Position numbers and translations under genes: made by a program | From: Desulfobulbaceae bacterium | Lineage (GTDB): Bacteria > Desulfobacterota > Desulfobulbia > Desulfobulbales > Desulfocapsaceae | Reading direction: 5' to 3' | Assembly (NCBI GenBank): GCA_003249645.1 | Contig: QKIH01000033.1 | Location: forward strand, 1 to 64,000 | Length of the DNA stretch: 64,000 nucleotides | Notes under the pieces: model-generated | What the model saw: only the letters and a program-made list of their open reading frames with translations | The model's database searches: none | Told to the model about the DNA's origin: nothing | Shown: one piece after another, positions 2,418-19,200 of the stretch | Numbering within the stretch: the first letter of the stretch is position 1 | How the letters are laid out: each line of letters begins with the position of its first letter

Positions 2418-4040
<1,623 letters not shown>

Positions 4041-4097
4041 TAAGCTTCCCTCCCAAACAAGCTTAGTCTGGCCATTTATCAGGCAGGTAAAAAGAAG

Positions 4098-4406
4098 TTA
4101 CACTGAGCAGACGGCACAAAGAGGTTCTGCTTCACTGGAGACAAACTGCTCACTGAATGCAAAACCGCACTTGTTACAAACCTTAACACCTTCAGGAACA
4201 ACAGTGCTGGCATTTGATGCCGGCGCGATTGTCCCAATATCTCCGACGGGCACTGACAACATACTGTTTTCCTCAATATTTCCGGCCACAGTCACACTGT
4301 CATCTACCCTAAAAACCTGTTGACACTCCGGGCATCGAACCTTTTTTCCCAACAAAGTATCGTCCGCTGTGCCTTTTAACCCACATTCTGGGCAAATCAT
4401 CTTCAT
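4098..4406 (-). CDS. Small double zinc-ribbon protein
   Basis: A 102-residue soluble protein. An N-terminal MJ0042-like ribbon (CPEC and CPEC) closely matches the start of the 540-residue neighbour. A C-terminal second ribbon has CNKC and CAVC. The middle is a Val/Ser/Ala-rich linker. The ORF can be opened at a TTG at 4412, but AGGAGG at 4414-4419 leaves only one base before it. The ATG at 4406 has a six-base spacing and gives the same MKM start as the paralogue. It probably binds two zinc ions; its partner and function are unknown. Confidence 0.75.
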   Translation of the reverse strand: MKMICPECGLKGTADDTLLGKKVRCPECQQVFRVDDSVTVAGNIEENSMLSVPVGDIGTIAPASNASTVVPEGVKVCNKCGFAFSEQFVSSEAEPLCAVCSV

Positions 4407-4534
4407 CGGCAACCTCCTGGAATAAATTCTAACCCCGTTATCACCATTTGTGATAAAAAATGTATTAAAACATCGTAATATTTAATAGAATGCAAAGATA
4501 TTACAACCTTTTTTTGTGCAAAGGAAAATAAGGC

Positions 4535-5011
4535 ATGGAAATCATACTCATAGCGGCAATGTCATGCAACCGCGTGATAGGAAAAAATGATGCAATCCCC
4601 TGGCATATCCCCGAGGAATTACAGCATTTCAAAACCGTCACCATGGGCTACCCGCTGATCATGGGAAGAAAAACCCATCAGGCGATAGGCTTCCCTCTTC
4701 CCGGTCGAAAAAACATTGTCATTACACGTGACAGGGCAATTACACTTAATGGCTGCACCGTCGTTCACACCATCGATGAAGCCATAAATGCATGCGATAA
4801 TGCTGAGCGGGTTTTTATCCTTGGAGGAGAAGATATTTTCCGACAGACCATGGATATCGCTGACACCATTCTGCTGACAGTTCTTGATCGCATAGTCGAT
4901 GGAGACACCGTATTTCCTGAATTTTCCTCCACCGATTTTCAGGAAACCGACAGGAAACGGGTTGAGGGAAAGGATCCCTTCACTATCTACACCTATAACA
5001 GGGGGAAATAA
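4535..5011 (+). CDS. folA: Dihydrofolate reductase
   Basis: A 158-residue cytoplasmic enzyme that reduces dihydrofolate to tetrahydrofolate with NADPH. All family landmarks are present. The N-terminal strand leads to the VIGKNDAIPWHIPEEL segment, in which Glu28 sits at the place of the catalytic acid (Asp27 of the E. coli enzyme). The MGRKTH and GRKNIVITR motifs contact NADPH, and FILGGEDIF is the second glycine pair of the cofactor site. Length is typical. AAGG sequences precede the ATG. It stands between the zinc-ribbon pair (divergent) and the SLC13 permease, with no thyA beside it. Confidence 0.95.
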   Translation: MEIILIAAMSCNRVIGKNDAIPWHIPEELQHFKTVTMGYPLIMGRKTHQAIGFPLPGRKNIVITRDRAITLNGCTVVHTIDEAINACDNAERVFILGGEDIFRQTMDIADTILLTVLDRIVDGDTVFPEFSSTDFQETDRKRVEGKDPFTIYTYNRGK

Positions 5012-5119
5012 GAATCGGCCATTTTCTCTTGCATTAATCCAACATAGTGCAATATTTGATCTATACGCTGACTCCTGTGATTTTATTTCTGCTTAACAAC
5101 ATCTGGTCAGGATTTTGCC

Positions 5120-6892
5120 ATGGGAATATGGATCATATCTGCCATCCTGGTTGTAACGCTTTACCTGCTTATTTCTGAAGTTATTTCCGTAGACCTTACC
5201 GCCATCGGGATCATTGTCCTTCTGGTCGTCACCGGTCTCCTCAGCCCGAAAGAGGCTGTCTCGGGTTTTGCCAATCCGGCACTGATCACAGTGGCGGCAA
5301 TGTTTGTCGTCAGCAAAGGTCTGATACGAACCGGAGGCATAGAATTCCTGGGACGGAAAATCACCAATGTCGCGAAAACAAATGTCAATGCGGCACTTGC
5401 TCTTATTCTTTTTTCAGTGGCTGTTTCATCCGCCTTTATTAACAACACGCCGGTTGTCATTCTTTTCATTCCGGTGGTGATGACCATGTGCTGTGAACTG
5501 GGGCTGAGTCCGTCAAAATTCCTCATTCCGCTTTCCTATGCCTCTATTCTTGCCGGGACTTGTACCCTGATCGGAACATCCACCAATATTATTATTAGTG
5601 ACCTCAGCAATGAATACGGCTTCGGCTCTCTTTCCATGTTTGAGATTTCTATCATTGGCGTACCCATAGCATTAATCGGCATTGTTTTTATGCTTATTGC
5701 AGCACCCCGCCTGCTGCCAGACCTGGCTAATCCGGTCTGCCGCATAAAAGACAGTGAACATCGCCAATATCTTGCTGAAATCCAACTTAAGGCGAAAAGC
5801 AGATTCCTCGGCATTCATCCCGGCGAAGTAAAAAAACACTACCCAGACCTTGAAGTACTTGAGCTTGTCAGCAATCGTACAATTTATCACCCCGGCAGAG
5901 ATGCCAAACTTGTCTGTGAAGGTGACACCCTGCTGATTAAAGCCTCGCTGAATAGTCTCATTACAATTCTCCAGGAAGATGGTGTGGAACTCCCCTCTTC
6001 CGAAAAGGATCTCGTACTCGGTGCCCAGAAAGACGCACCTATCGTTGTTGAAATGCTTGTTGCCCCCGGCTCTTCAGAAAGGGGCTATAAAGTCAGCCAG
6101 ACTGGTCTGGCCAGGAACCCGGATATCAATATCATTGCCGTAAAGCGGACTACCCGCCACATTGATGAGAGGCAGATTGAAGAAATCCGGCTTCGCACAG
6201 GTGATACCCTGCTGATCTGGTGCCAGGGCAGCACCCTCGAATCGCTTCGCAGCGATAATGACTACCTGATTATAGAAGATGTCTACGAAGAACTGGTTCA
6301 CAAACGCAAGGCCTGGTGGGCCATCATCAATTTCATCGGCATGATCGGCACCGCCTCTCTGGGCATAGCCGATATCATGACCTGTGCACTGACAGCTGCC
6401 TTTCTGATGGTTGTCACCGGCTGTCTGCAGATGCGTGATGCCTACCGCTCCATTCAATGGGATGTTCTGCTGCTTATTGCCGGTACCATCGCCTTAGGCC
6501 TCGGGATGCAGAAAACCGGTGCCAGCGAATTATACGCCAAAAGCTTTCTCAGCCTGCTTCATGGTTTCAGTCCAACCATTATTCTTGGCGGTATGATTCT
6601 GATTACCTCAATCAGCACACAGATTTTAAGCAACAATGCGACGGCTGTTCTGCTGCTGCCGATTGCGATTTCAACAGCAGTGAGCATCGGTGTTGACCCG
6701 AAACCATTTATCATTGGGGTCTGTATCGGTGCAAGCGCATGTTTTGCTACTCCGATGGGCTACCAGACCAATCTTATGGTCTTTGTTCCCGGCGGCTACA
6801 GTTTCAAAGATTATATGCGCCTTGGCGTTCCGCTCAATATCTTTGTGGTGCTGGCTGGAAGCCTGCTGATACCAATGATCTGGAAGTTCTGA
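5120..6892 (+). CDS. SLC13/DASS-family anion permease with TrkA-C (RCK_C) domains
   Basis: A 590-residue inner-membrane protein. Two blocks of hydrophobic helices (residues 1-200 and 395-590) flank a soluble insert (about 210-385) made of two TrkA-C-like domains. This is the arrangement of sodium-coupled SLC13-related sulfate and anion permeases such as SAC1-type proteins. Both halves carry the Asn-Thr/Asn-Asn signature loops of the transport site (FINNTPVVILFIP with GTSTNIIISD, and ILSNNATAVLLLPIA with GYQTNLMVFVPGGY). Sulfate or a related oxyanion is a reasonable substrate guess for an anaerobe, but it cannot be proved from sequence. The inserts probably sense a nucleotide or ligand. Confidence 0.88.
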   Translation: MGIWIISAILVVTLYLLISEVISVDLTAIGIIVLLVVTGLLSPKEAVSGFANPALITVAAMFVVSKGLIRTGGIEFLGRKITNVAKTNVNAALALILFSVAVSSAFINNTPVVILFIPVVMTMCCELGLSPSKFLIPLSYASILAGTCTLIGTSTNIIISDLSNEYGFGSLSMFEISIIGVPIALIGIVFMLIAAPRLLPDLANPVCRIKDSEHRQYLAEIQLKAKSRFLGIHPGEVKKHYPDLEVLELVSNRTIYHPGRDAKLVCEGDTLLIKASLNSLITILQEDGVELPSSEKDLVLGAQKDAPIVVEMLVAPGSSERGYKVSQTGLARNPDINIIAVKRTTRHIDERQIEEIRLRTGDTLLIWCQGSTLESLRSDNDYLIIEDVYEELVHKRKAWWAIINFIGMIGTASLGIADIMTCALTAAFLMVVTGCLQMRDAYRSIQWDVLLLIAGTIALGLGMQKTGASELYAKSFLSLLHGFSPTIILGGMILITSISTQILSNNATAVLLLPIAISTAVSIGVDPKPFIIGVCIGASACFATPMGYQTNLMVFVPGGYSFKDYMRLGVPLNIFVVLAGSLLIPMIWKF

Positions 6893-7081: not shown

Positions 7082-8542
7082 ATGAAAATATTTTACCAGC
7101 TCTTTTTCGCGCTACTCCTGGGCCTGCTGTTTATCATATCAGTCGACCATTATTTCAGTTACAGTGAGGAAGTCTGGCAGTTTGAAAGAGATCTTGTCAA
7201 AAATTCCATTCAGGATGGACGCAGCATCTCAGGAATGATTCGCCATGTCTGGATTGATAACGGAGAGCAGAAAGCACTGGAACTGCTGGAAGACGCCAGC
7301 ATAGAGGGCAGAATCAAGGCAAGGTGGGTCTGGGCTGATGAACTCGTCAACAGCGAGGTTATCAAGCAGGAGCAAATAGATGTTGCAGCTTCCTTCGAGT
7401 CAAACTCACCATTTTCGGTTAAATTGAACACTTCGGAAAATCCTTCTATCCTTACCTACATCCCCGTCGCACTTCCCCTTAAACGCCATGGGGGACTTGA
7501 AATCGAACAGTCATTGCTGCCGCTTAAATCTTACCAGAAAAAAATGCTTATTCGGTCGATCGTGATCTCCTGTGTCGTCGCCATCGTATTCGGCACAATT
7601 CTCTATCTGTACATCACCCTGAAAATTCGCAGACCCATCGAACAACTGATGGACCATACACGTCGAATCGGCAAAGGTGATTTACGTGTTGCTGAGGCAC
7701 TGCCGAAAGACAATGAACTGGGGCTGCTCTCTGAAACTATTAATGACATGTGTTCAAGGCTATTGATTTCACGTGAAAAAATCAAATTTGAATATGAAGC
7801 GAGACTCCAGACAATCGAAAAGTTACGTCACACCGAACAGCTTTCCAATCTTGGTATCCTGGCCGCTGGCATAGCCCACGAGATCGGCACACCGCTCAAC
7901 GTTATTGAAGGCAGATCCAGGATGATCACTGAAGCCGCAGGAAATCATGAAAGCATATGTCACAACAGTGACATTATTCATAAACAGTGCGAAAAAATTT
8001 CCTATACAATCAGACAGCTTCTCGATTATTCCAGAAGACCGAAACAGCAAGTCGCAAGAGAAAATATCCAGTTCATAGTAAAACAGGTCTTTCAACTCAT
8101 TTATCCTCTTGCCAAGAAACAGGATGTGACCTTGAATATTATCGTCGAAGAGAATATGGAAACATCCATGGAGGTCGATGGAAACCAGCTGCAGCAGGTA
8201 TTTGTCAACCTGCTGATGAACAGTATTCAGGCCATGCCCCACGGTGGTGATGTCACCGTATCCATGACAACACATATTGAAAAATCGCAGGATATCACCA
8301 AACCGGATTCCACTTTCATGCAGATAGAAATCAGTGATGAAGGAGGCGGGATAGAGCCAAAAAACATGAAAGACATATTCACACCGTTCTTTACGACAAA
8401 AGCAATGGGCGCCGGAACAGGGCTTGGACTTTCTATCGCCCATGAAATCATTCAGGAGCATGGCGGCTGGATTAACGTCAGGAATGTAGAAAAAGGAAGT
8501 TGCTTTACCATCTACATGCCAATGGAGGGAATTAAAGCGTGA
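7082..8542 (+). CDS. Membrane sensor histidine kinase (NtrB/AtoS-like)
   Basis: A 486-residue kinase. TM1 is at residues 3-24, followed by a small periplasmic sensor (about 25-155), TM2 (about 158-182) and a HAMP domain (KIRRPIEQLMDHTRRIGKGD). The HisKA domain has the phosphoacceptor His266 in AGIAHEIGTPLN, and the C-terminal HATPase shows NLLMNSIQAM, DEGGGI and GTGLGLSI. It overlaps the next gene by four bases, so it should phosphorylate that sigma-54 response regulator. The periplasmic ligand is unknown. The pair lies directly upstream of the sigma-54 promoter of the hydrogenase-related operon, suggesting that the operon is its target. Confidence 0.92.
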   Translation: MKIFYQLFFALLLGLLFIISVDHYFSYSEEVWQFERDLVKNSIQDGRSISGMIRHVWIDNGEQKALELLEDASIEGRIKARWVWADELVNSEVIKQEQIDVAASFESNSPFSVKLNTSENPSILTYIPVALPLKRHGGLEIEQSLLPLKSYQKKMLIRSIVISCVVAIVFGTILYLYITLKIRRPIEQLMDHTRRIGKGDLRVAEALPKDNELGLLSETINDMCSRLLISREKIKFEYEARLQTIEKLRHTEQLSNLGILAAGIAHEIGTPLNVIEGRSRMITEAAGNHESICHNSDIIHKQCEKISYTIRQLLDYSRRPKQQVARENIQFIVKQVFQLIYPLAKKQDVTLNIIVEENMETSMEVDGNQLQQVFVNLLMNSIQAMPHGGDVTVSMTTHIEKSQDITKPDSTFMQIEISDEGGGIEPKNMKDIFTPFFTTKAMGAGTGLGLSIAHEIIQEHGGWINVRNVEKGSCFTIYMPMEGIKA

Positions 8543-9828
8543 GAGGTGTAATCTGCATCATAGAAGATGAACCTGATATGTGCGAATATCTGGAGGAGAC
8601 TCTTCAGCGACGTGACTTTTCCATCTTCACCTACCATACCGGACAGAGCGGTCTGACCGCCGTCAGCGACAGACCGTTTGATGCGGTGCTTGTCGACATT
8701 AATCTGCCGGATATCAGCGGCCTTCATGTCTGCAATAAAATTATCGAAAATGTTCCTGATGTGCCGGTCATCGTGATGACAGCCTTCGGCAATATGGATA
8801 CAGCCATCTCGGCAATACGGGCCGGAGCATATGATTTTGTAACGAAACCATTGGATATTGATATTCTTTCCATGGCTCTGGACAGGGCTGTTCGCTACAG
8901 GAATCTGCAGAAAACCATAAAGAAGCTCAGCGATACCACCCAAAAACCCGATGTCTTCGGCAATATCATAGGCCAGAGTCAGGTTATGGAGGAGATGTTT
9001 AATCAGCTTAGCCGCATCGCCGACTCTGAAGCAACCCTTCTGATTACCGGAGAAAGCGGCGTCGGTAAAGAAGTGACTGCAAGAGCCGTCCACTCTCATT
9101 CGAGAAGGGTGAACAAACCGCTAATCTCGATAAACTGCGCAGCCATGCCGGGACAGCTTCTGGAAAGTGAACTTTTCGGCTATGTCAAAGGGGCATTTAC
9201 CGATGCAAGATCGGCGAAAAACGGTCTTTTTCAGGAGGCGGACGGAGGCACCCTCTTTCTTGACGAAATAGGAGAAATCCCTCTTGATCTCCAGCCGAAA
9301 CTCCTTCGGGTTCTCGAAGAAAGACGCGTCAGACCACTGGGCGGCGTCAAGGAAATCCCGATAGACGTACGCATTATTGCTGCGACCAACCGTGATCTGG
9401 AAACGGCAGTTGAAGAAGGGTTGTTTCGGGAAGATCTGTTCTACCGATTAAATGTCATTAAAATATCCATCCCTCCGCTGCGCTCCAGAGGAACGGATAT
9501 TCTGCTGCTTGCCAAAAAGTTTATTGAACAATTTGCCAAGAGACAGCAAAGGGATGTTACCGGGATGACCGAAGCCGCTGTACAGAAGCTGCTGGATTAT
9601 TCATGGCCCGGCAACGTCAGAGAACTGAGAAATGCCGTTGAACATGCGGTTGCGCTGACGAGGTTTGAAAAAATCGTGCCAGAAGATCTTCCTGCTAAAA
9701 TCGCAAACTACACAACTGACCAGCTGCTTCTGCCGTCTGAAGACCCTATGGAACTCATCTCTCTTGAAGAAATGGAGAAACGCTATATCCAGCACGTTCT
9801 GAAGTCACGGCAAGAATTCTTCAGATAG
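8539..9828 (+). CDS. Sigma-54-dependent response regulator, C-terminal HTH lost by frameshift
   Basis: An NtrC-family regulator of 429 residues. The receiver domain has Asp53 (VDINLPD). The AAA+ domain shows Walker A GESGVGKE, a GAFTDA variant of the sigma-54 contact loop GAFTGA, Walker B GGTLFLDEIGE and a C-terminal R-finger region. The Fis-type helix-turn-helix should follow RYIQHVLKS. Instead the frame runs into RQEFFR and stops. The missing recognition helix (ARILQIDRKTLYRKL) is present in another frame at 9810-9881. Comparison with the family suggests loss of roughly 22 bases. The protein could still hydrolyse ATP and contact sigma-54, but DNA binding is probably absent unless this is a sequence error. 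Confidence 0.9.
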   Translation: MRGVICIIEDEPDMCEYLEETLQRRDFSIFTYHTGQSGLTAVSDRPFDAVLVDINLPDISGLHVCNKIIENVPDVPVIVMTAFGNMDTAISAIRAGAYDFVTKPLDIDILSMALDRAVRYRNLQKTIKKLSDTTQKPDVFGNIIGQSQVMEEMFNQLSRIADSEATLLITGESGVGKEVTARAVHSHSRRVNKPLISINCAAMPGQLLESELFGYVKGAFTDARSAKNGLFQEADGGTLFLDEIGEIPLDLQPKLLRVLEERRVRPLGGVKEIPIDVRIIAATNRDLETAVEEGLFREDLFYRLNVIKISIPPLRSRGTDILLLAKKFIEQFAKRQQRDVTGMTEAAVQKLLDYSWPGNVRELRNAVEHAVALTRFEKIVPEDLPAKIANYTTDQLLLPSEDPMELISLEEMEKRYIQHVLKSRQEFFR

Positions 9829-9881
9829 ACCGAAAAACACTCTATCGCAAACTGCAGGGCTACGAGAACAATAATAAATAG
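9810..9881 (+). pseudogene. Out-of-frame remnant of the regulator's HTH domain
   Basis: Reading from GCA at 9810 gives ARILQIDRKTLYRKL, then QGYENNNK and a TAG at 9879-9881. This is the normal recognition helix and tail of an NtrC-family regulator. It overlaps the end of the upstream frame and shows that the gene once ended at 9881. Confidence 0.85.
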
Positions 9882-10190: not shown

Positions 10191-10208
10191 TTGGCACAGC
10201 TCATGCAA
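10191..10208 (+). promoter_or_regulatory. Sigma-54 (-24/-12) promoter
   Basis: TTGGCACAGCTCATGCAA matches TGGCAC-N5-TTGCA, with the invariant GG at 10193-10194 and GC at 10205-10206 separated by the required 10 bases. Transcription would start near 10218, about 50 bp before the ATG of the 76-residue gene. The gene pair just upstream encodes a sigma-54 activator and its kinase. Confidence 0.75.
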
Positions 10209-10266
10209 TCAGGATACTGAAGTATTATTTATATAAAATATTGGTGATTATTGGGAGGATTACCAG

Positions 10267-10497
10267 ATGAATGTCTTTATTGGAATTACACAGCACCCTG
10301 AAAAACTGCAGCAGGCAATTGACGCAAATGCCGGAAGCAGTGATTCACTGATGGAAGTAGGACCTTTCCTCACAAAGGAAGCTGCTTCAGAGTGGAAAAA
10401 CTACCTGACCAGCAAGCTCGGAAAGACTACTGAAATAGATCCAGATCAGGAAAAAGATGCCTATTCACTCTGGTACGGTTTCACCTTTGAAGCATAA
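10267..10497 (+). CDS. Small acidic protein, first gene of the hydrogenase-related operon
   Basis: A 76-residue soluble protein with a strong ribosome site (GGGAGGA, seven bases before the ATG). It has no signal peptide, membrane helix or cysteine. The sequence looks like a small alpha/beta domain (strand MNVFIGIT, helix about 11-20, strand around MEVGPFL, helix EAASEWKNYLTSKLG, final strand SLWYGFTFE). I do not recognise a family. It is the first gene after the sigma-54 promoter and lies 64 bp before the carbonic-anhydrase-like gene, so a regulatory or accessory role in the operon is likely. Confidence 0.8.
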   Translation: MNVFIGITQHPEKLQQAIDANAGSSDSLMEVGPFLTKEAASEWKNYLTSKLGKTTEIDPDQEKDAYSLWYGFTFEA

Positions 10498-10561
10498 GAG
10501 TTGTATTGCTGTATCCACTTAAATTTTCGATATCCGAATAGAATATTTTAGGGAGGACAAA

Positions 10562-11734
10562 ATGCACACGGCACAGGCTAAAGGATTTATTAGAGATATT
10601 GGTCAATTCAAGGTACATGACTACGCCATGCCCTATGTGGAATTTGTCCCGAAACTCTACAACTTTTGTCTCTCTCTCGGCTTCAGTGATGGCTATATGA
10701 TGCCATCAAGAGCTTTTTGTTCTGATGAAAATCAGGGCATGCCGATACTGCTTATCAGCAGACATTTTGGCACATTTCCATTCGATCATGGAATAGTCGG
10801 CGGTATAATGGCAATAGACCGGCATGGTCCTCACTCAACCCATGGTGAGGACGCCGTCATCATTCAGGCCAGCCACGTCGGATATGATCCTCACACAAAA
10901 ACCTACGGCACCTGTAACCGTCCGAAGATGAGGGGCGAGTGCAAATCAAGCAGCTGCGGGAAAATCACCCATGTCATCGAACCGTTTCTCCAGCAGTTCA
11001 AGATGGCCCAGAATCGAATCTTTCTCCACCGTAATGACGGCGGGGAATACCTTATAACCGTTAAAGATTCGTTCATCGATTTTCACACTTCGCCCATCGA
11101 AGACGGCCTGACGCTTCATCTGCAGAATATTGCCAGACGTACTGGTGACGGTGCTATTGTACCGATCGCAACCCATAGTACATCCCATACCTATGAGGTC
11201 TCAGAAGATTTCCGAAGAAGGATAAACGAAACCGGTTACGAATGGCAAGGTGGTGTAGGCAAAGCTATTGGCAATCTGCTTGCCGCAGATCTCTTCTCCT
11301 TCCGCGTGACAAACAAAGGCGGGGGCTCCATGCTGGAGAGAAATCTTATTGAATTCATGCCGTCCATCGTAACCCACAAGAGCCCGCAGCTCAAAGCGGC
11401 CAAGGTGAATGTGCAGAGAGAATTTGCAAGAACCGTCGAATCGATTCACCGCGGAACAGAATATAACGGCAAAAATCTGCTTTACATCGCAGGCTTAAAT
11501 CTCGACATTGCAAGCTATCATGGCCACCCTGAAACCACTTATTTTGTGCCATGGGCTGCCTATATACAACTCAAAGACAGTTGTCCGTCCGAATATATAC
11601 ATCCTCTTGAACAGGACCGGCTTTTTCAGAAACTGTCAGAGCAGTCAACTATCAATCCGAGTCAGATCAGCATAAAGGATGAAATTGACAAAATGCTGCA
11701 TACTCCGCGCTACGATATCTACACACCAAGATAA
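10562..11734 (+). CDS. Predicted zinc protein, possible LCIB-like beta-carbonic anhydrase
   Basis: A 390-residue cytoplasmic protein with a strong ribosome site (GGGAGGA). The N-terminal half carries a metal-site pattern: Cys53-x-Asp55 in AFCSDEN, several histidines (His68, His76, His88, His91, His94), then His105 in ASHVGYD and Cys132 in SSSCGK. The order Cys-x-Asp, His, Cys is that of beta-carbonic anhydrases. The wide His-Cys spacing and the SxxCG ending resemble the LCIB family. The C-terminal half (about 190-390) is extra and unassigned. It sits 140 bp before the membrane-complex genes and behind the same promoter, which suggests it feeds or senses CO2/bicarbonate for that complex. Family assignment is from memory of motifs, not an alignment. 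Confidence 0.55.
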   Translation: MHTAQAKGFIRDIGQFKVHDYAMPYVEFVPKLYNFCLSLGFSDGYMMPSRAFCSDENQGMPILLISRHFGTFPFDHGIVGGIMAIDRHGPHSTHGEDAVIIQASHVGYDPHTKTYGTCNRPKMRGECKSSSCGKITHVIEPFLQQFKMAQNRIFLHRNDGGEYLITVKDSFIDFHTSPIEDGLTLHLQNIARRTGDGAIVPIATHSTSHTYEVSEDFRRRINETGYEWQGGVGKAIGNLLAADLFSFRVTNKGGGSMLERNLIEFMPSIVTHKSPQLKAAKVNVQREFARTVESIHRGTEYNGKNLLYIAGLNLDIASYHGHPETTYFVPWAAYIQLKDSCPSEYIHPLEQDRLFQKLSEQSTINPSQISIKDEIDKMLHTPRYDIYTPR

Positions 11735-11876
11735 TACGAATTTTATAATTTAAGAATATATGAGAATGAACCTAGAAACGATACGGAGGTACTATGATCA
11801 CAGCATGCTGACCAAATGGGTCACGTTGGAAGCGCAACATTCACCATAGTAATCAACTAAAATTAAACGAGGAATG

Positions 11877-13829
11877 ATGGACATCTTTCTATTATCGCTT
11901 TTGATTATTACAATTGGCGGGATTTTTCCTCTGCTGAGCTATCGTCAGTTCAGTTTGATGAAATCCGGTTATATTGCAATAACTGTTGCAGGCTGTGTTA
12001 TTGGCTTATCAGCCATTACAGCTCCTTTGGCAAGTTCACAGATTGAACATTTTTCGCAATCGTGGCTGCATTTTCTTTCTTTTAACCTTACACTTGACTC
12101 ACTCTCCGCATTTTTTCTAGTTCCCATTTTCGCAGTATGTCCTCTGGCAGCACTCTACAGCTTCAAATATTTTCATAAGCCTGAAGAGAGCCTGAGAACA
12201 GCAACAAATTATCTTTTCTTCAATCTGTTGATCGTCACCATGGCTCTTGTCGCCACTGCCGACAACATATTCAGTTTTGCCATTGTCTGGGAGCTCATGT
12301 CTCTCACCTCATTCTTTCTGGTCATGTATGAGTACCAAAAGCAAGAGACCCGCAAAGCAGGCTACATCTATTTTGTCTTTGCCCAGACGGGTGCACTCTG
12401 CATCTTTGCTGCCTTCGCCCTTGCCTACAGCCAGACCGGTTCTCTTGATTTTGCGGCATTCGCATCTATGCCCGCCAACATGAAGTATATTGTTTTTCTC
12501 CTGGCTCTGGCTGGATTCGGCTCTAAGGCAGGTATTTTCCCGCTGCATATCTGGCTTCCCCATGCCCACCCGGCTGCACCAAGTAATATTTCTGCAATCA
12601 TGTCCGGTGTTATGATCAAGATGGGTATCTACGGAATTATCAGGATGTTTTTCGTCCTTGGCGTGGACTCGGTGATATTTGGTCAAACCGTACTCACATT
12701 CGGCATGATTTCAGGAATACTGGGCATTGTCTATGCCCTCGGAAAACAGGATCTGAAAAAGCTTCTTGCCTACAGTAGTGTGGAAAACATTGGTGTTATC
12801 CTGATCGGTGCAGGCGTCGGCATGATGGGTATTGCACACGGCAATAAGGTTATGGCCGGTTTCGGCTTTGCCGGTTGTCTGCTCCATGTGCTCAACCACT
12901 CTATTTTCAAGTCGCTGCTCTTTCTTGGAGCCGGTGTTGTACTCCATGAAACCGGCACCAAGCAGATTGATCAGTTCGGCGGTCTGATGAAGCGGATGCC
13001 GACTACCGGCAAGACCTTCCTGACTGGTGCTCTTTCCATTTCAGGACTGCCCCCGTTCAATGGTTTCATCAGCGAATTTTTAATCTATTACGGTGCCTTC
13101 CAGGGACTTACCCTCAACGCTACCTCTGCTATTTTTTCAAGCCTTGCCATACTTTCTCTGGCCCTGATCGGCGGACTCGCTGTCTCCTGCTTTACCAAGG
13201 TAATAGGAATTGTCTTTTTGGGAGAACCCAGAAGCGAAAAGGCAACAGCTGCTAAGGAAGCCGGTTTTGCAATGACCTTACCGATGATCATCATGGCAGC
13301 AACCTGTCTGGCTATCGGTCTCTTTCCTGCACCGGTTGTCAAGATGGTCATGACAGCTCTGCAGAGCAGCTCAATACCTGTGCCTGAGACCTCACTGGTT
13401 ACAGAGATAACCGGCTATTTAGGTTTTGCAACCAGACTCTTCTTTATCTTCATCATTGTCAGTCTGCTGCTGAGAAAAATCTTCTATCGTAAGAAAGTTG
13501 TCGACTCAAGCACGACCTGGGGCTGCGGTTTTACCAAAGGAACCGTGCGCATCCAGTATACCGGCACATCCTATTCAGGAAATGTGGTGGAATTCTTCAA
13601 ACCATTTCTGATGCTGCACACCACCTATTCAGGAATCAAGAGAATTTTCCCCGGCAAGACAACTTATGAGACCAAGGTTGATGATATCGCTGAAACAACC
13701 CTGCTGGAATATATCATTTCTCCATTTCTTTACCTGCTCAGCAAGTTCAGATGGATCCAGCACGGCCATATTCAGCTCTATATTGCCTACATCATCATAA
13801 CCATCATTGTTCTGCTGATGTTCATATGA
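11877..13829 (+). CDS. Antiporter-like subunit (HyfB/NuoL-type) of an Ehr complex
   Basis: A 650-residue membrane protein of the complex-I antiporter (Mrp/NuoL/HyfB) family, with about 16 helices. Ion-path residues are kept: the helix-5 glutamate near residue 138 (VWELMSLTSFF), the helix-7 lysine near residue 216 (GFGSKAG), the HAHPAAPS loop, and a second lysine in HSIFKSLLFLGAG. The tail (from about 540) ends in a final membrane helix, as in HyfB. ATGs at 11874 and 11877 both follow CGAGG; the second has the better spacing. It is the largest pump subunit of the complex and would move H+ or Na+. Confidence 0.88.
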   Translation: MDIFLLSLLIITIGGIFPLLSYRQFSLMKSGYIAITVAGCVIGLSAITAPLASSQIEHFSQSWLHFLSFNLTLDSLSAFFLVPIFAVCPLAALYSFKYFHKPEESLRTATNYLFFNLLIVTMALVATADNIFSFAIVWELMSLTSFFLVMYEYQKQETRKAGYIYFVFAQTGALCIFAAFALAYSQTGSLDFAAFASMPANMKYIVFLLALAGFGSKAGIFPLHIWLPHAHPAAPSNISAIMSGVMIKMGIYGIIRMFFVLGVDSVIFGQTVLTFGMISGILGIVYALGKQDLKKLLAYSSVENIGVILIGAGVGMMGIAHGNKVMAGFGFAGCLLHVLNHSIFKSLLFLGAGVVLHETGTKQIDQFGGLMKRMPTTGKTFLTGALSISGLPPFNGFISEFLIYYGAFQGLTLNATSAIFSSLAILSLALIGGLAVSCFTKVIGIVFLGEPRSEKATAAKEAGFAMTLPMIIMAATCLAIGLFPAPVVKMVMTALQSSSIPVPETSLVTEITGYLGFATRLFFIFIIVSLLLRKIFYRKKVVDSSTTWGCGFTKGTVRIQYTGTSYSGNVVEFFKPFLMLHTTYSGIKRIFPGKTTYETKVDDIAETTLLEYIISPFLYLLSKFRWIQHGHIQLYIAYIIITIIVLLMFI

Positions 13830-13861
13830 GCAGGATGAACTCAATTTGATAGAGGATAGTA

Positions 13862-14782
13862 ATGGAATCGTTTATATCATTAGCCATAGCTCTTCTGGCT
13901 GCCCCGCTGTTTCCCGGCATCATTCTGAAGGTTAAGGCCTTTTTTGCCGGCAAGCAGGGTCCGCCGCTGCTGATTAAATATTATACGCTGTTCAAGCTGC
14001 TTAAAAAGGGCTCTGTTTACAGCAACAGCACCAGCTTTGTTTTTACCCTCGGCCCGGTTATTTCGTTTGCTTCAGCAGTAATCGTGCTCTTTTTCTTCCC
14101 CTTTGCCGGGAATGCGCCGATTTTTTCTTTCCACAGCGATGTAATCATCCTGTTTTACATCATGGGACTCGGACGCTTTTTCACCGTCATCGCCGCCCTT
14201 GACACCGCCTCACCTTTTGAGGGAATGGGCGCAGCAAGGGAAGTGTTTTTCTCAACCATCGCAGAACTAGCCATATTCACCGTGCTGATCCTGTTCTACA
14301 GGCTCACCGGTTCACTGAGCTTCAGCGAATACTTCATCGGCGAGACCCCGATCTCACTGGTCGGCGTGTCCGGCGCATTGATTGTTTTTGTTGTTGTCTC
14401 TATGTTTATGGTTCTGCTCACGGAAAACTCCAGGGTGCCGGTTGACGACCCTGCAACCCACCTCGAGCTGACCATGATCCATGAGGTTATGATCCTTGAT
14501 CATAGCGGTCCTGATCTGGCGATGATTGAGCTCGGCGCTTTCTACAAGCTCTATTTTTATGCCGCGTTTGTTACCCACCTGATCTTTCCTTTTGTCCCGG
14601 CAAACGGCCCTGTAATGAACACCGTGATTTTTCTTGCAATCATGGCTGCCGTTTATGCAACTATCGGAATAGTGGAATCGATTATGGCGCGTTTTAAGAT
14701 GAACCTTGTTCCAAAGTTCATTTTCACCTCATTTGCCCTGGTATTCTTCGCCGCCATCTTAACAATAGGGGTGATCCAATGA
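13862..14782 (+). CDS. NuoH/HyfC-type membrane subunit of the Ehr complex
   Basis: A 306-residue membrane protein with about eight helices, related to NuoH, HycD and HyfC. The conserved acidic cytoplasmic loop (PVDDPATHLELTMIHEVM) is present. In this family it joins the pump arm to the catalytic arm. It follows the antiporter gene by 32 bp and overlaps the next start codon by four bases (ATGA). In complex I this subunit forms the entry of the quinone channel; in hydrogenase-type relatives it couples the hydrophilic arm to ion pumping. Confidence 0.88.
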   Translation: MESFISLAIALLAAPLFPGIILKVKAFFAGKQGPPLLIKYYTLFKLLKKGSVYSNSTSFVFTLGPVISFASAVIVLFFFPFAGNAPIFSFHSDVIILFYIMGLGRFFTVIAALDTASPFEGMGAAREVFFSTIAELAIFTVLILFYRLTGSLSFSEYFIGETPISLVGVSGALIVFVVVSMFMVLLTENSRVPVDDPATHLELTMIHEVMILDHSGPDLAMIELGAFYKLYFYAAFVTHLIFPFVPANGPVMNTVIFLAIMAAVYATIGIVESIMARFKMNLVPKFIFTSFALVFFAAILTIGVIQ

Positions 14783-15432
14783 TTAATTACACTGAAATTA
14801 CCATAGTTTTCATACTCCTGTCGGTTCTGCTCTCCCTGAGTTCTTCAAGACTGATGACCCTGGTGAAACTCATGGCTCTGCAGGGTGGCGCGGTTTCTCT
14901 TGTACCACTGCTCCTTGAGGGTACCCAGCATCTTCCGATGGGTGAGCTCCTCTTTTTCCAGGTGATGATTCTCATCAAGTGCATCATCATTCCGGGACTG
15001 CTGGTTCTTGCTGTCAAGCGGGTCAGGATAAAAAGAGAAATTGAACCCTTTATCGGCTACCACGCCTCCATCGTTGCAGGACTTGTTATCCTGCTGGTTT
15101 CTGTCTTTGTAACCGGTTACCTGAAACTCTCCCTGCCTGAAGGACACAATTTCGTCCTCGTATCCGCCATTACAACCATGGCCGCAGGGTTCTTTCTGAT
15201 GATGGCGCGTCGTAAAGCTATTACCCAGGTAATAGGATATCTGATGCTTGAAAACGGCATCTACCTGATTGGTACGGCACTGACCAACCCGAGTCATACC
15301 CTGTATGTGGTTGAATTCGGTGTCCTGCTCGACCTGCTGGTCGGCGTTATGATTATGGGTATCATCCTGCACAATATCAACAGTGCATTCGATGATGCGG
15401 ATACAACCTTACTTGGACGATTAAAGGACTGA
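14779..15432 (+). CDS. HyfE-type membrane subunit of the Ehr complex
   Basis: A 217-residue protein with six or seven hydrophobic helices. It resembles HyfE, whose C-terminal half is NuoK-like (GYLMLENGIYLIGTAL carries the glutamate typical of the NuoK fold). Translation is coupled to the NuoH-like gene by an ATGA overlap. It is expected to sit between the antiporter subunits and the NuoH-like subunit. Confidence 0.85.
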   Translation: MINYTEITIVFILLSVLLSLSSSRLMTLVKLMALQGGAVSLVPLLLEGTQHLPMGELLFFQVMILIKCIIIPGLLVLAVKRVRIKREIEPFIGYHASIVAGLVILLVSVFVTGYLKLSLPEGHNFVLVSAITTMAAGFFLMMARRKAITQVIGYLMLENGIYLIGTALTNPSHTLYVVEFGVLLDLLVGVMIMGIILHNINSAFDDADTTLLGRLKD

Positions 15433-15436
15433 TACC

Positions 15437-16864
15437 ATGATAGAATTTGTTTTCCTGCTTCCGATAATTATGGGACTTATCATTTTGGCCCTGCCACCAT
15501 CGGTCGGGAGGCTGCTGCTGCTGATCACATCACTCATGCACCTCCAACTCACCGTGATGACATGGCTTGGCAAATTTACCCCGGCGTTCGCCCAGCTCTT
15601 CAAGGCCACACCGGAAGGTTTATACATCCTACTTATTACATCATTTATATTTTTCTGTATCAGCGTATACGCATTTGCCTACGTTAACGAGACAGACATA
15701 ACCAATAAGCCGGCTTTCAACGGCTGCATGCTGCTTTTCCTCGGCACCATGTCTATGGTTACCCTGTCTGACCACCCGATTATGCTCTGGGTCGCTGTTG
15801 AGGCAACAACCCTGGTCAGTGCTCCGCTGATTTTCATTCACCGCTCCAAAGAGGCTCTCGAGGCCACCTGGAAATACGTGATTATCTGTTCTGTCGGTAT
15901 TGCCCTGGCACTGCTCGGCTGCTTCTTCATGACCCTGTCGCTGGACCTTACCAACATCCGGGTACCACTGTCTTACACCTCGTTATACAAAGTAGCTTCC
16001 AGTCTCGATCCGATCTGGCTCAAAACCGGTTTTATCTTCGTCATTATCGGTTTCGGAACCAAAATGGGTCTGGCGCCTATGCACACCTGGCTGCCCGATG
16101 CACATAGCCAGGCACCGAGCCCCGCTTCTTCACTTTTAAGCGGTGCTCTGTTGAACTGCGCTTTCCTCGGCATATACAAAATGCACATTCTTATGGTTGC
16201 TGCCGGACTCGGTCAGTTCTCTTCGAACCTGCTGATCGGTTTCGGCCTGTTCTCCATGTTTGTCGGTGCCATTTTCATCATCAATCAGCCGGACTACAAG
16301 AGGATGCTGGCCTATTCCAGTATCAAGAATATGGGCATCATCGCTTTCGGTGTCGGTATCGGCGGTTTTGCACTTTACGGTGCTTTCCTGCACATTCTCC
16401 ACCACTCCCTGATCAAGTCTTCTCTGTTCCTTTCTGCCGGAAATATCCTGCTTGGTTTCAACACGAAGAAAGTGAAGAAGATCGGCGGCATGATAAAGTA
16501 CCTGCCAAAAACCTTTGTCTCCTTTATAGCTGGTTTCGTTGCCATATCCGGGCTGCCTCCGTTTGGTATGTTTCTCAGTGAAGTGGTGATCATCATCGGC
16601 GCAATCCAGAGCGGCAAATACCTCGCTGTCACCATGTTCATGCTGGCAGTACTGATCGTATTTGCAGGAATCGGCAAGGCATGTCTTTCCATGTCTTTCG
16701 GCGATGAAGTTGAAAAACTGCAGACCAAGGAAAGGATGCTCCGGGTTATTCCACCGTATGTCCTGCTGGCTGCATCCGTGATTATCACAATCTGGATGCC
16801 GCAACCTGTTTACAACACAATTATCAACTCAATCCAGATCATCGGAGGGAAAATTCATGGATAA
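15437..16864 (+). CDS. Second antiporter-like subunit (HyfF type) of the Ehr complex
   Basis: A 475-residue membrane protein of the NuoL/M/N family. It keeps the helix-5 glutamate (WVAVEATTLVSAPL), the helix-7 lysine (GFGTKMGLAPMHTWLPDAH) and the later lysine (HHSLIKSSLFLSAG), so it should be a working ion channel subunit. It starts four bases after the HyfE-like gene and overlaps the next gene by eight bases. Together with the gene at 11877 it gives the complex two antiporter-type subunits. Confidence 0.88.
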   Translation: MIEFVFLLPIIMGLIILALPPSVGRLLLLITSLMHLQLTVMTWLGKFTPAFAQLFKATPEGLYILLITSFIFFCISVYAFAYVNETDITNKPAFNGCMLLFLGTMSMVTLSDHPIMLWVAVEATTLVSAPLIFIHRSKEALEATWKYVIICSVGIALALLGCFFMTLSLDLTNIRVPLSYTSLYKVASSLDPIWLKTGFIFVIIGFGTKMGLAPMHTWLPDAHSQAPSPASSLLSGALLNCAFLGIYKMHILMVAAGLGQFSSNLLIGFGLFSMFVGAIFIINQPDYKRMLAYSSIKNMGIIAFGVGIGGFALYGAFLHILHHSLIKSSLFLSAGNILLGFNTKKVKKIGGMIKYLPKTFVSFIAGFVAISGLPPFGMFLSEVVIIIGAIQSGKYLAVTMFMLAVLIVFAGIGKACLSMSFGDEVEKLQTKERMLRVIPPYVLLAASVIITIWMPQPVYNTIINSIQIIGGKIHG

Positions 16865-18380
16865 CCTCCTCAAAATTAAAAATGGTGCTGTAGTTGACCG
16901 CAATGCCATTCCAAATGTCTCCAATTCAGTCTTTTTCTCGTCACTTGCTGAATTTGTTAAAAATGACGGATACATCGTCCAGTTTTTCGGCTACATCGAA
17001 AACGGTATCAATCGACTGATAGCGGTTGTCCGCAACCGTGATCTTTACGTCATTGAAACTGAAGTCGGCAGCTCCTTTCAGTCTCTTACCGGCAGCACCA
17101 GCGAAAAGTTTCATCTCTTTGAAAGAGAGATCGCAGAACAGTTCGGTATCATTCCGGAAGGGCACCCATGGCTGAAAATGGTCAGATACCACAAGAACTA
17201 TACCGGTGCCCCGGATGCCTTCGGCAACGATTATGCCAAGGAGCATATCCCCGGGAATTATCACTATTTCCAGGTTGAAGGCGAGTCCATTCACGAGGTT
17301 GGCGTCGGTCCTGTTCACGCCGGTATTATCGAACCGGGTCACTTCAGGTTCCAGTGTGCCGGTGAAGAAGTCCTTCACCTCGAGATCCAGCTTGGTTACC
17401 AGCACCGCGGCATAGAAAAAATGATGCCTTCTGTTCCTCAAAAGAGATGGCCGATCATCTGTGAATCCATCGCCGGAGATACCAGCGTCGGACATAACCT
17501 TTGTTTCAGCCAGGCCGTTGAAGCCTTGGCCAGCCTTAAAGTGGACGACAAATCTTCTATCGTCAGGTCCATTGCTCTTGAACTTGAGAGAATCGCTAAC
17601 CACATCGGTGATCTCGGCGCGCTTAGCGGCGACGTTGCATTCAACCCGCCGGCAGCCTATTTCGGCAGGATAAGAGGTGAATTCCTCAACCTGCTCCAGG
17701 TACTTGGCGGCAACCGCTTCGGCAAAGGACTTGTTCGTCCCGGCGGGGTCACTCATGTTATGGAAGAGGAGCAGATCAAGATCGTTCGCGCCAAGCTGCA
17801 TGAGCTTATTCCTGAAATTGAACATGTCTGCGACCTTCTTTTCTCGGCAACAACCGTTCTGGCCCGCTTTGAAAACACCGGTATTGTTGCCCATGAAATG
17901 GCAAAAGACCTCGGTCTTGTCGGCTATGCCGGCCGGGCATGCGGCATCAGCTATGATGCAAGGGTAGCTTTCCCGACCGAGTATTACGCACATCTTCCGG
18001 CAAATGAGAACAACACCACCGATGGTGATGTAAACAGCCGCGCCTCTGTCAGAAGAGAAGAGATCATGCATTCAATGCAGATCATCCTCCAGCTTCTCGA
18101 AATGTATGAACAGATTGGTGCCACAACCGGGGCCGTCTTCATGAAAGAGCACAGCCTGAAAGCAAATTCTTTTGTCGTGACGATTAACGAGGGATGGCGA
18201 GGAGAACTCTCACACTGCGTTCTCACTGACAATAACGGCAAAGTACAGAGATACAAAATTAAAGATCCTTCTTTCCACAACTGGACAGGCCTGGCCATGT
18301 CTCTCAGGAACCAGGGAATCTCTGATTTTCCTCTGTGTAATAAAAGCTACAATCTCTCTTACTGCGGTTTTGACCTGTAA
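16857..18380 (+). CDS. NuoCD/HyfG-type large subunit lacking NiFe ligands
   Basis: A 507-residue cytoplasmic subunit. Residues about 1-115 are a NuoC (30-kDa) domain (FEREIAEQFGI-x-PEGHPW). The rest is a NuoD/hydrogenase large-subunit domain. Neither NiFe cysteine pair is present. At the first motif the sequence is CESIAGDTSVGH (202-213), with Ala206 and Thr209 where a hydrogenase has Cys. At the C-terminus it reads NLSYCGFDL, with Ser501 and Gly504 in place of the second pair. It cannot hold a normal NiFe centre and belongs with energy-converting-hydrogenase-related (Ehr) proteins. The actual redox partner is unknown. Confidence 0.87.
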   Translation: MDNLLKIKNGAVVDRNAIPNVSNSVFFSSLAEFVKNDGYIVQFFGYIENGINRLIAVVRNRDLYVIETEVGSSFQSLTGSTSEKFHLFEREIAEQFGIIPEGHPWLKMVRYHKNYTGAPDAFGNDYAKEHIPGNYHYFQVEGESIHEVGVGPVHAGIIEPGHFRFQCAGEEVLHLEIQLGYQHRGIEKMMPSVPQKRWPIICESIAGDTSVGHNLCFSQAVEALASLKVDDKSSIVRSIALELERIANHIGDLGALSGDVAFNPPAAYFGRIRGEFLNLLQVLGGNRFGKGLVRPGGVTHVMEEEQIKIVRAKLHELIPEIEHVCDLLFSATTVLARFENTGIVAHEMAKDLGLVGYAGRACGISYDARVAFPTEYYAHLPANENNTTDGDVNSRASVRREEIMHSMQIILQLLEMYEQIGATTGAVFMKEHSLKANSFVVTINEGWRGELSHCVLTDNNGKVQRYKIKDPSFHNWTGLAMSLRNQGISDFPLCNKSYNLSYCGFDL

Positions 18381-18410
18381 TGAGACTCACCGAAAATAAA
18401 GGTCTGAAAT

Positions 18411-19154
18411 ATGCTGAAAGTAATAAAAAATAGAATGGAACAGGGGTGCAAGACCTCTAAATATCCAAAAGAGCCGATTCAATTGTATAAGCGCTTCAGA
18501 GGTATGCCGCGAATTAACGCCTCGTGCAGCCAGTCAGTTATCCAGCAATGTGCCGATATCTGCCCACAGGATTGTATCGATACCAAAAATAAGACTATCG
18601 ACCTTGGCCGCTGCACCTTCTGCGGCCAATGTGAAGTGCAGTCGAAAGGTGAATTTGTTCTATTTTCCGAGAATTTTGAACTCGGCGCCGCCTCAAGGGA
18701 GCACCTGATAACAGGCGGCTCTCTGCCGGCACTTGCTGAACATTCCAAGCAGCATTTCAAGAAACTGTTCGGACGGTCCCTGCAGCTTCGTCAGGTGTCA
18801 GCCGCCGGCTGTAACTCCTGTGAAGCTGATACCAATGTTTTGAACACCCCGTTTTTTGATCTTTCTCGTTTTGGTATTGATTTTGTCGCATCACCTAGAC
18901 ATGCCGACGGAATTCATGTTACCGGCCCGATATCACGCAACATGACCCAGGCTCTGCTTGATACCTACGAGGCGGTGCCGTCACCGAAAGTCGTTATAGC
19001 CAGCGGCTGCTGTTCAATTTCAGGCGGCCCCTTTTACGGCAGTGACGAGGTCGTCGGCGATCTCAATAAACTGATCCCGGTTGATCTGTATATTCCAGGA
19101 TGTCCACCGCACCCGCTGACAACCCTGCATGCCCTGCTGCAGTTTTTTAAATAA
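18411..19154 (+). CDS. Ferredoxin-NuoB fusion subunit (HyfH/HyfI-like)
   Basis: A 247-residue iron-sulfur protein and the last gene of the operon. Residues about 39-75 form a reduced ferredoxin domain. Cys68, Cys71 and Cys74 with Cys51 can bind one 4Fe-4S cluster. The other cluster site is incomplete (Cys39 and Cys47 remain, and the second CP is replaced). Residues about 125-247 are a NuoB/hydrogenase small-subunit domain with the proximal-cluster cysteines Cys134, Cys137, Cys200 or Cys201, and Cys231 (GCPPHP). Fusing the ferredoxin (normally HyfH/NuoI) to the NuoB subunit makes a compact electron arm of two clusters. Confidence 0.85.
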   Translation: MLKVIKNRMEQGCKTSKYPKEPIQLYKRFRGMPRINASCSQSVIQQCADICPQDCIDTKNKTIDLGRCTFCGQCEVQSKGEFVLFSENFELGAASREHLITGGSLPALAEHSKQHFKKLFGRSLQLRQVSAAGCNSCEADTNVLNTPFFDLSRFGIDFVASPRHADGIHVTGPISRNMTQALLDTYEAVPSPKVVIASGCCSISGGPFYGSDEVVGDLNKLIPVDLYIPGCPPHPLTTLHALLQFFK

Positions 19155-19163
19155 GCAGTGATT

Positions 19164-19200
19164 AAACCGGAGAAGAACATTTCTTCTCCGGTTTTTCTTT
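19164..19200 (+). terminator. Terminator of the hydrogenase-related operon
   Basis: A perfect stem, AACCGGAGAAG with its complement around a short AACAT-type loop, is followed by TTTTTCTTT. It begins 10 bp after the last stop codon and marks the end of the operon. Confidence 0.9.

Follow-up and report, generated by a model that had tools for sequence, protein, structure and literature searches.

An operon with genes for an LCIB-like protein and an Ehr complex

We analyzed a 64,000-nucleotide stretch of DNA from a Desulfobulbaceae bacterium (assembly GCA_003249645.1, contig QKIH01000033.1), referred to here as the window. Region 10191-19154 of the window contains, all on the + strand, open reading frames for proteins of 76 and 390 amino acids (aa) and six complex-I-like genes (11874-19154). 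We found that the 390-aa protein, which we call LCI, is predicted to be a carbonic-anhydrase-like zinc protein with the fold of LCIB, and that its homologues are often encoded next to the genes for a membrane complex that we assign to the Ehr type. The operon has the following features.

10192..10207, + strand: sigma-54 -24/-12 promoter element (TGGCACAGCTCATGCA), 75 nt upstream of the 76-aa gene
10267..10497, + strand: gene for the 76-aa protein (p76), first gene of the Ehr operon
10562..11734, + strand: gene for LCI, predicted 390-aa LCIB-fold carbonic-anhydrase-like protein (Pfam, AlphaFold, Foldseek, conservation)
10718..10726, + strand: codons C53-S54-D55 of LCI (motif AFCSDENQG), first predicted zinc ligand and Asp
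10874..10876, + strand: codon H105 of LCI (motif ASHVGYD), second predicted zinc ligand
10955..10957, + strand: codon C132 of LCI (motif SCGK), third predicted zinc ligand
11874..13829, + strand: HyfB-like antiporter-type membrane subunit (Proton_antipo_M, E = 9e-56)
13862..14782, + strand: NuoH/HyfC-like membrane subunit (PF00146)
14779..15432, + strand: HyfE-like (NuoK-type) membrane subunit (Pfam/NCBIfam)
15437..16864, + strand: HyfF-like antiporter-type membrane subunit (Pfam/NCBIfam)
16857..18380, + strand: NuoC-NuoD fusion, hydrogenase-large-subunit-like (Pfam, HycE alignment)
18411..19154, + strand: HyfH/NuoI-NuoB fusion, ferredoxin-type domain and small subunit (Pfam/NCBIfam, PDB match)
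19164..19194, + strand: intrinsic terminator hairpin, 14 pairs and a T tract

The original prediction for this DNA had listed the same set of open reading frames followed by a strong terminator, and both are present as claimed. The gap between the 76-aa gene and LCI is 64 nt and that between LCI and HyfB is 139 nt. Because the gaps are of this size and no terminator was predicted in either of them, a single transcript from one promoter across the operon is plausible. The product of the first gene, p76, had no match in Pfam or NCBIfam. This gene also comes first in the Ehr operons of many relatives, including operons that have no LCI gene, and is tandemly duplicated ahead of the Ehr operon at two loci (L032, 7067-7615; L185, 9065-9648).

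LCI is predicted to have the LCIB fold

We built an AlphaFold model of LCI from 39 relatives (pLDDT 86.9, pTM 0.86). This model replaced an earlier one, made with 19 sequences, that had left the zinc segment unresolved. When the model was compared to the PDB with Foldseek, all eight hits at E<=0.001 were chains of the LCIB family: 6kfs (1.3e-8), wild-type and mutant PtLCIB4 (5b5y, 3.4e-8, TM 0.78 by target), LCIB and LCIC. The likeness to LCIB that the original prediction had put forward for comparison is thus borne out by the predicted fold.

Searches by sequence gave a fainter signal. All 19 members of the first LCI alignment (A1) matched the LCIB family PF18599 (LCIB_C_CA), with a best E of 1.2e-7, and a profile made from A1 reached PtLCIB4 (5b5y) weakly (E = 0.53). 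A second profile (A2) found no LCIB match in the PDB search, a PDB search with the single 390-aa sequence gave chance matches only, and a search of plasmids with this protein gave no match.

C53, D55, H105 and C132 were invariant in all 39 aligned relatives, which are from Desulfobacterota and Gammaproteobacteria. The beta-carbonic-anhydrase ligand order noticed in the original prediction (Cys-x-Asp, His, Cys) is therefore a conserved property of these proteins. In a profile alignment with PtLCIB4, residues C53, S54, D55 and E56 fell on the CSDE motif and H105 on the SHVG motif. H91 of LCI aligned with the PtLCIB4 histidine that we deduce, from inferred numbering, to be the mutated H88. LCI is not a canonical beta-carbonic anhydrase (PF00484): it has no Pro_CA match, and there is no Arg at the CxDxR place. 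Based on the model and the conserved ligands, the 390-aa protein is an LCIB-fold, carbonic-anhydrase-like, predicted zinc protein. The same genome encodes a second, distant zinc-type LCI (33% identical; L002/L052) that does not have Ehr genes beside it.

The membrane complex is assigned to the Ehr type

The original prediction had described the membrane complex as hydrogenase-derived, and the closest PDB matches agree with this. The large subunit (the NuoC-NuoD fusion) was closest to HycE of formate hydrogenlyase and to MbhL. The small subunit was closest to MbhJ and HycG, and has the proximal [4Fe-4S] motifs GCNSC, GCC and PGCPP. The HyfB-like subunit scored 587 bits on the hydrogenase 4 subunit B model, which has a cut-off of 667. 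All four of the cysteines that serve as Ni-Fe ligands have been lost: CGIC and DPC in HycE (7z0s_E) correspond to AGDT and NLS in the window, where the last residues lie past the end of the alignment and were read by eye.

Ehr complexes have been defined as lacking the Ni/Fe-coordinating residues and are suspected of coupling a redox reaction to charge translocation (PMC6349859). Because the NiFe cysteines are lost and a [4Fe-4S] small subunit and antiporter-type subunits are present, the six-subunit complex is, by this definition and as judged from its sequence, an Ehr complex. Several genomes of the family have a second, divergent Ehr-type set whose NuoIB is 51-54% identical to that of the window (L201, with the full gene set; G043:C42:115092; G085:C18:1454). 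In some genomes it is present beside the first copy.

Genes for LCI and Ehr are conserved as neighbors

LCI homologues are encoded in 44 of the 93 genomes of the window's family, and a close Ehr small subunit in 52. The two tended to occur together: 36 genomes had both, 8 had LCI only, 16 had Ehr only and 33 had neither (p = 2.6e-6), and the corresponding counts for the better assemblies were 24, 3, 11 and 16 (p = 4e-4); these counts ignore phylogeny. Of 96 non-redundant LCI loci, 45 had LCI on the same strand as HyfB and no more than 1 kb 5' of it, and at least five others had it on the 3' side of the Ehr genes (L103, L105, L106, L109, L127). Many of the remaining loci are contig ends or are from Gammaproteobacteria. 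Co-occurrence of LCI homologues with adjacent Ehr genes, on which the original prediction depended, is strongly conserved. Hosts of LCI loci include Desulfoprunum benzoelyticum, Desulfofustis glycolicus, Desulfocapsa, Candidatus Electrothrix and Desulfurivibrio. At one locus (L092, 5311-8368) there are two LCI genes in tandem ahead of a single Ehr set.

Among all of the gene clusters that neighbor LCI, only the Ehr genes recur broadly. In addition, LCI distances correlated with NuoCD distances (r = 0.91 without the divergent loci L094 and L127; 0.66 with both). The correlation of 0.91 is comparable to that of subunit pairs inside the complex, and vertical inheritance contributes to it.

The pairing could be a frozen accident of vertical descent that has no functional meaning. 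A single order accounts for most of the linked loci, and the presence of LCI is clustered on the NuoCD tree. In contrast, the flanking genes are scrambled while LCI and Ehr stay together, both gene orders occur (L103, L105, L106 and L109 compared to the rest), and LCI also occurs with an Ehr that has diverged strongly (L094, 35-46% identical). We consider a frozen accident very unlikely.

Neighboring genes point to inorganic carbon

Homologues of LCI in Gammaproteobacteria are ~41-48% identical to the window protein. LCI adjoins a DabA operon with DabB-like genes at three gammaproteobacterial loci (L143, L146, L207), and Mrp/MBH-type antiporter genes at L144 and L218 (Gammaproteobacteria) and L091 (Desulfobacterales). 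SulP carriers adjoin LCI at L211, L218 and L219 (Gammaproteobacteria). The SulP proteins of L218 and L219 scored 616 and 602 bits as BicA, compared to 291 on the sulP model, and did not reach the strict BicA cut-off of 880. Of the SulP neighbors that were tested, those that resembled BicA were all gammaproteobacterial. By a coarse estimate, which covers ~27 loci and assumes approximate gene numbers, the DabA, antiporter and SulP adjacencies are not expected by chance. At L207 (4525-13628), where the LCIB-like gene adjoins the DabA operon, it shares its strand with the last gene.

Five genomes of Desulfobulbales have a canonical beta-carbonic anhydrase gene ~0.3-0.6 kb 3' of Ehr on the same strand (L043, at 16638-17228; L068/L098; L083; L191; L199). 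In Desulfofustis glycolicus (L099), genes for a beta-carbonic anhydrase and a SulP (3517-6355) come first in the order beta-carbonic anhydrase, SulP, histidine kinase, response regulator, p76, LCI and Ehr. Together, the DabA, BicA-like, antiporter and beta-carbonic anhydrase neighbors point to inorganic carbon.

Other relatives of the beta-carbonic anhydrases use COS or CS2, and it is conceivable that LCI acts on one of these or on another small substrate of this fold. The hosts are from sulfur-cycling lineages, and the canonical Asp-Arg dyad is altered in LCI. We regard such a substrate as highly improbable: the neighbors are genes for inorganic carbon, and Methylophaga (L144) also has LCI.

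A proposed inorganic-carbon unit

We propose that the operon encodes an inorganic-carbon unit in which LCI, as a soluble LCIB-type carbonic-anhydrase-like zinc protein, works with the ion-translocating Ehr complex. We give this proposal about an even chance of being correct. LCI would interconvert CO2 and bicarbonate (plus H+) at the cytoplasmic face, and HyfB, HyfF and NuoH would move H+, or an ion, across the membrane. Energy could come from a low-potential donor, e.g., ferredoxin, through the iron-sulfur relay, or from an ion gradient. Because Ehr would remove H+ across the membrane, hydration would be drawn towards bicarbonate and pH would be balanced. Beyond an LCIB fold with conserved ligands, encoded next to Ehr, this mechanism is what we infer.

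Several observations weigh against the proposal. With PF18599, LCI itself scored 19 bits (E = 9e-4), under the curated cut-off of 25. The position of the Arg in the CxDxR dyad is N57 in LCI (CSDEN). This Arg is present in DabA2 (PMC13144422), and PtLCIB4, by the profile alignment, likewise does not have it. A role as bicarbonate carriers was not supported for the SulP neighbors in Desulfobacterota, which we do not count as evidence; the closest matches of the two that were tested were plant sulfate transporter 4.1 and the generic sulP model, so that they resemble generic sulfate permeases and not BicA. Several LCI genes are located away from Ehr. The Ehr operons closest to that of the window (L182-L187, NuoIB 79-84% identical) have no LCI ahead of HyfB, and we found no LCI in the genomes of these loci, which mostly retain p76 and the pair of regulators (histidine kinase and NtrC type), with gaps in single loci. 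Lastly, the protein in the LCI slot of genus g11 (27-36% identical) does not have C53, D55, C132 or most of residues 57-90.

Since the closest Ehr operons have no LCI, Ehr works without it. In a tree of NuoCD sequences from 56 operons, the window is nested within operons that have no LCI, and no fewer than five changes are needed to explain where LCI is present or absent; LCI has probably been lost several times. We rejected LCI as an obligate subunit of Ehr because there are sister operons without it. Given these operons and the zinc-less version in the g11 slot, we view LCI, by comparison of sequences, as an optional accessory module of Ehr. The original prediction had also read the unit in terms of CO2 hydration or bicarbonate. 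The link to inorganic carbon has gained from the DabA, BicA-like and beta-carbonic anhydrase neighbors; an obligate coupled enzyme does not fit with Ehr operons that have no LCI or with the zinc-less proteins of g11.

The zinc-less homologues (L053-L061, which are from g11 and in the same operon slot, and L062-L063) are candidate pseudo-carbonic anhydrases. Those of g11 retain the C-terminal AGLxIDx and FVPW motifs, and two g11 genomes (G056, G058) also encode a zinc-type LCI elsewhere. LCI might therefore be a bicarbonate/CO2 sensor, or an assembly or regulatory subunit of Ehr, with catalysis dispensable, as suggested by zinc-less versions that hold the operon slot and keep the C-terminal half conserved. 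In contrast, all of the other relatives in the alignment, whether of Desulfobacterota or of Gammaproteobacteria, have the zinc ligands and AFCSDENQG unchanged, and this implies that the metal site is under selection. We think that a sensor or assembly role is improbable.

The main rival to the proposed unit is that LCI is an ordinary soluble carbonic anhydrase that merely shares an operon, and regulation, with an independent Ehr pump. The two would serve pH and CO2 homeostasis in common, with no physical or mechanistic coupling: LCI would supply H+ and HCO3-, and Ehr (elsewhere DAB, Mrp or BicA) would move ions. Ehr operons without LCI and LCI without Ehr both occur, LCI pairs with several unrelated ion transporters, and a canonical beta-carbonic anhydrase can adjoin the same operon, all as this explanation has it. 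However, the persistent operon order and the co-divergence of LCI and NuoCD suggest more than shared regulation, although common descent accounts for part of this. On balance, we find the uncoupled enzyme rather unlikely.

Regulation and other genes in the window

The sigma-54 element TGGCACAGCTCATGCA matched 10 of the 11 fixed positions, and 1% of shuffled sequences were equally good. A site with at least 9 of the 11 was found upstream of the first gene in 16 of 59 related operons. Such sites were present at 13 of 15 loci with an adjacent NtrC-type regulator and at 1 of 42 others (Fisher p = 6e-10; two loci in which the regulator is cut off were excluded). Control of the operon by sigma-54 and NtrC in the window's clade is supported by these comparisons, and the sigma-54 link of the original prediction is upheld by both the site in the window and its recurrence. 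The following features lie upstream of the operon.

7082..8542, + strand: sensor histidine kinase (HAMP, HisKA, HATPase_c; Pfam)
8539..9828, + strand: NtrC-type response regulator (receiver, sigma-54 AAA+; Pfam), frame ends early
9807..9881, + strand: remnant of the regulator's helix-turn-helix, in another frame (TARILQIDRKTLYRKLQGYE)

The histidine kinase is kept beside the operon in many loci (L032, L045/L099, L053-L055, L057-L061, L182-L184, L186-L187). Compared to those of L183, L187 and L032, which are intact, the regulator gene in the window has lost 22 nt near its 3' end. The genes of relatives are 445-456 codons long and include a Fis-type helix-turn-helix. The deletion shifts the frame at the C-terminus and puts the helix-turn-helix out of frame. 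It may be genuine or may stem from a mistake in the assembly.

A gene at 5120-6892, immediately ahead of that for the kinase, encodes a carrier of the CitMHS/Na-sulfate-symporter type with a TrkA_C domain. There is also an open reading frame of 1963 aa on the - strand at 58036-63927.

Comparison with known systems

The LCIB family (LCIB, LCIC and PtLCIB4; PF18599; 5k5w, 5b5x, 5b5y, 6kfs) shares with LCI the fold, as modeled, and the order Cys-x-Asp, His, Cys. With PtLCIB4 the CSDE motif is identical and H91 aligns as above. LCI differs from the family in its length (390 aa compared to 198-248 resolved residues in the matched chains), its low identity (~10-13%), its Pfam score under the cut-off, and its bacterial operon partner.

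Like other Ehr complexes, that of the window has a group-4-hydrogenase-like subunit set without the Ni-Fe ligands, and antiporter-type subunits. Unlike them, it has fusions of NuoI with NuoB and of NuoC with NuoD, and an LCIB-type gene in the operon. Some Ehr complexes were tied earlier to formate dehydrogenase (PMC6349859); none of the earlier suggestions for Ehr that we found in the literature was CO2 hydration. A search of the open-access literature found no paper that links LCIB with Ehr, and absence there is no proof of novelty.

DAB2 consists of a subunit with a beta-carbonic-anhydrase fold and one complex-I-type antiporter subunit, and is driven by the proton-motive force (PMC13144422). 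The DAB/DAC systems (DabA-DabB; MpsAB) likewise place a zinc-type protein of this fold beside a complex-I-type antiporter subunit, and LCI homologues adjoin DabA operons in Gammaproteobacteria. However, LCI is half the size of DabA and by Pfam is unrelated to PF10070, and the window encodes, instead of DabB by itself, a complete Ehr complex of the redox type. DabA (PF10070) was absent from the window and from its genome and was present in 1 of the 93 family genomes; a DabA hidden elsewhere in the same genome was considered and rejected, as none was found.

NDH-1MS consists of a complex I driven by ferredoxin and, attached to it, a zinc carbonic anhydrase module that includes the alpha-helical CupA (PMC6981117). 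Both NDH-1MS/CupA and the window's unit combine a zinc-type module for CO2 hydration (predicted, for LCI) with a complex-I-type machine that has no NADH module and a ferredoxin-type entry. In contrast to NDH-1MS, LCI has the LCIB fold, to which that of CupA is unrelated, Ehr has no evident quinone site, and there is no light reaction. No protein of the operon had a CupA/CupB-type Pfam match. By these comparisons, the unit is similar to NDH-1MS and DAB, which are vectorial carbonic anhydrases, and, because the defining subunits are absent, is a member of neither.

In its strongest form, our proposal would add a third kind to the vectorial carbonic anhydrases, assembled independently of the others. 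In anaerobic bacteria of the sulfur cycle, an enzyme of the LCIB type would be coupled to an Ehr complex that is driven by redox and has no NiFe site, and conversion of CO2 to bicarbonate (or the reverse) would be powered by ferredoxin or an ion gradient. We hold this form only tentatively, as possible and somewhat unlikely.

Implications

To our knowledge, Ehr complexes occur in many lineages, and there is no agreement on their substrate. The pairing with LCI gives one Ehr clade a substrate that can be tested, inorganic carbon, and is a first concrete lead for such orphan complexes. LCIB-type proteins are known mainly from CO2 concentration in algae. Here, one recurs beside four modules for ion or bicarbonate transport (Ehr, DAB, Mrp-type and BicA-like). 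Partnership with such pumps may thus be general among LCIB proteins. Acetyl-CoA synthase is encoded in 80 of the 93 family genomes. If LCI and Ehr are coupled, they would be a machine for vectorial hydration of CO2 in anaerobes of which nearly all have this enzyme, far from carbon concentration based on RuBisCO.

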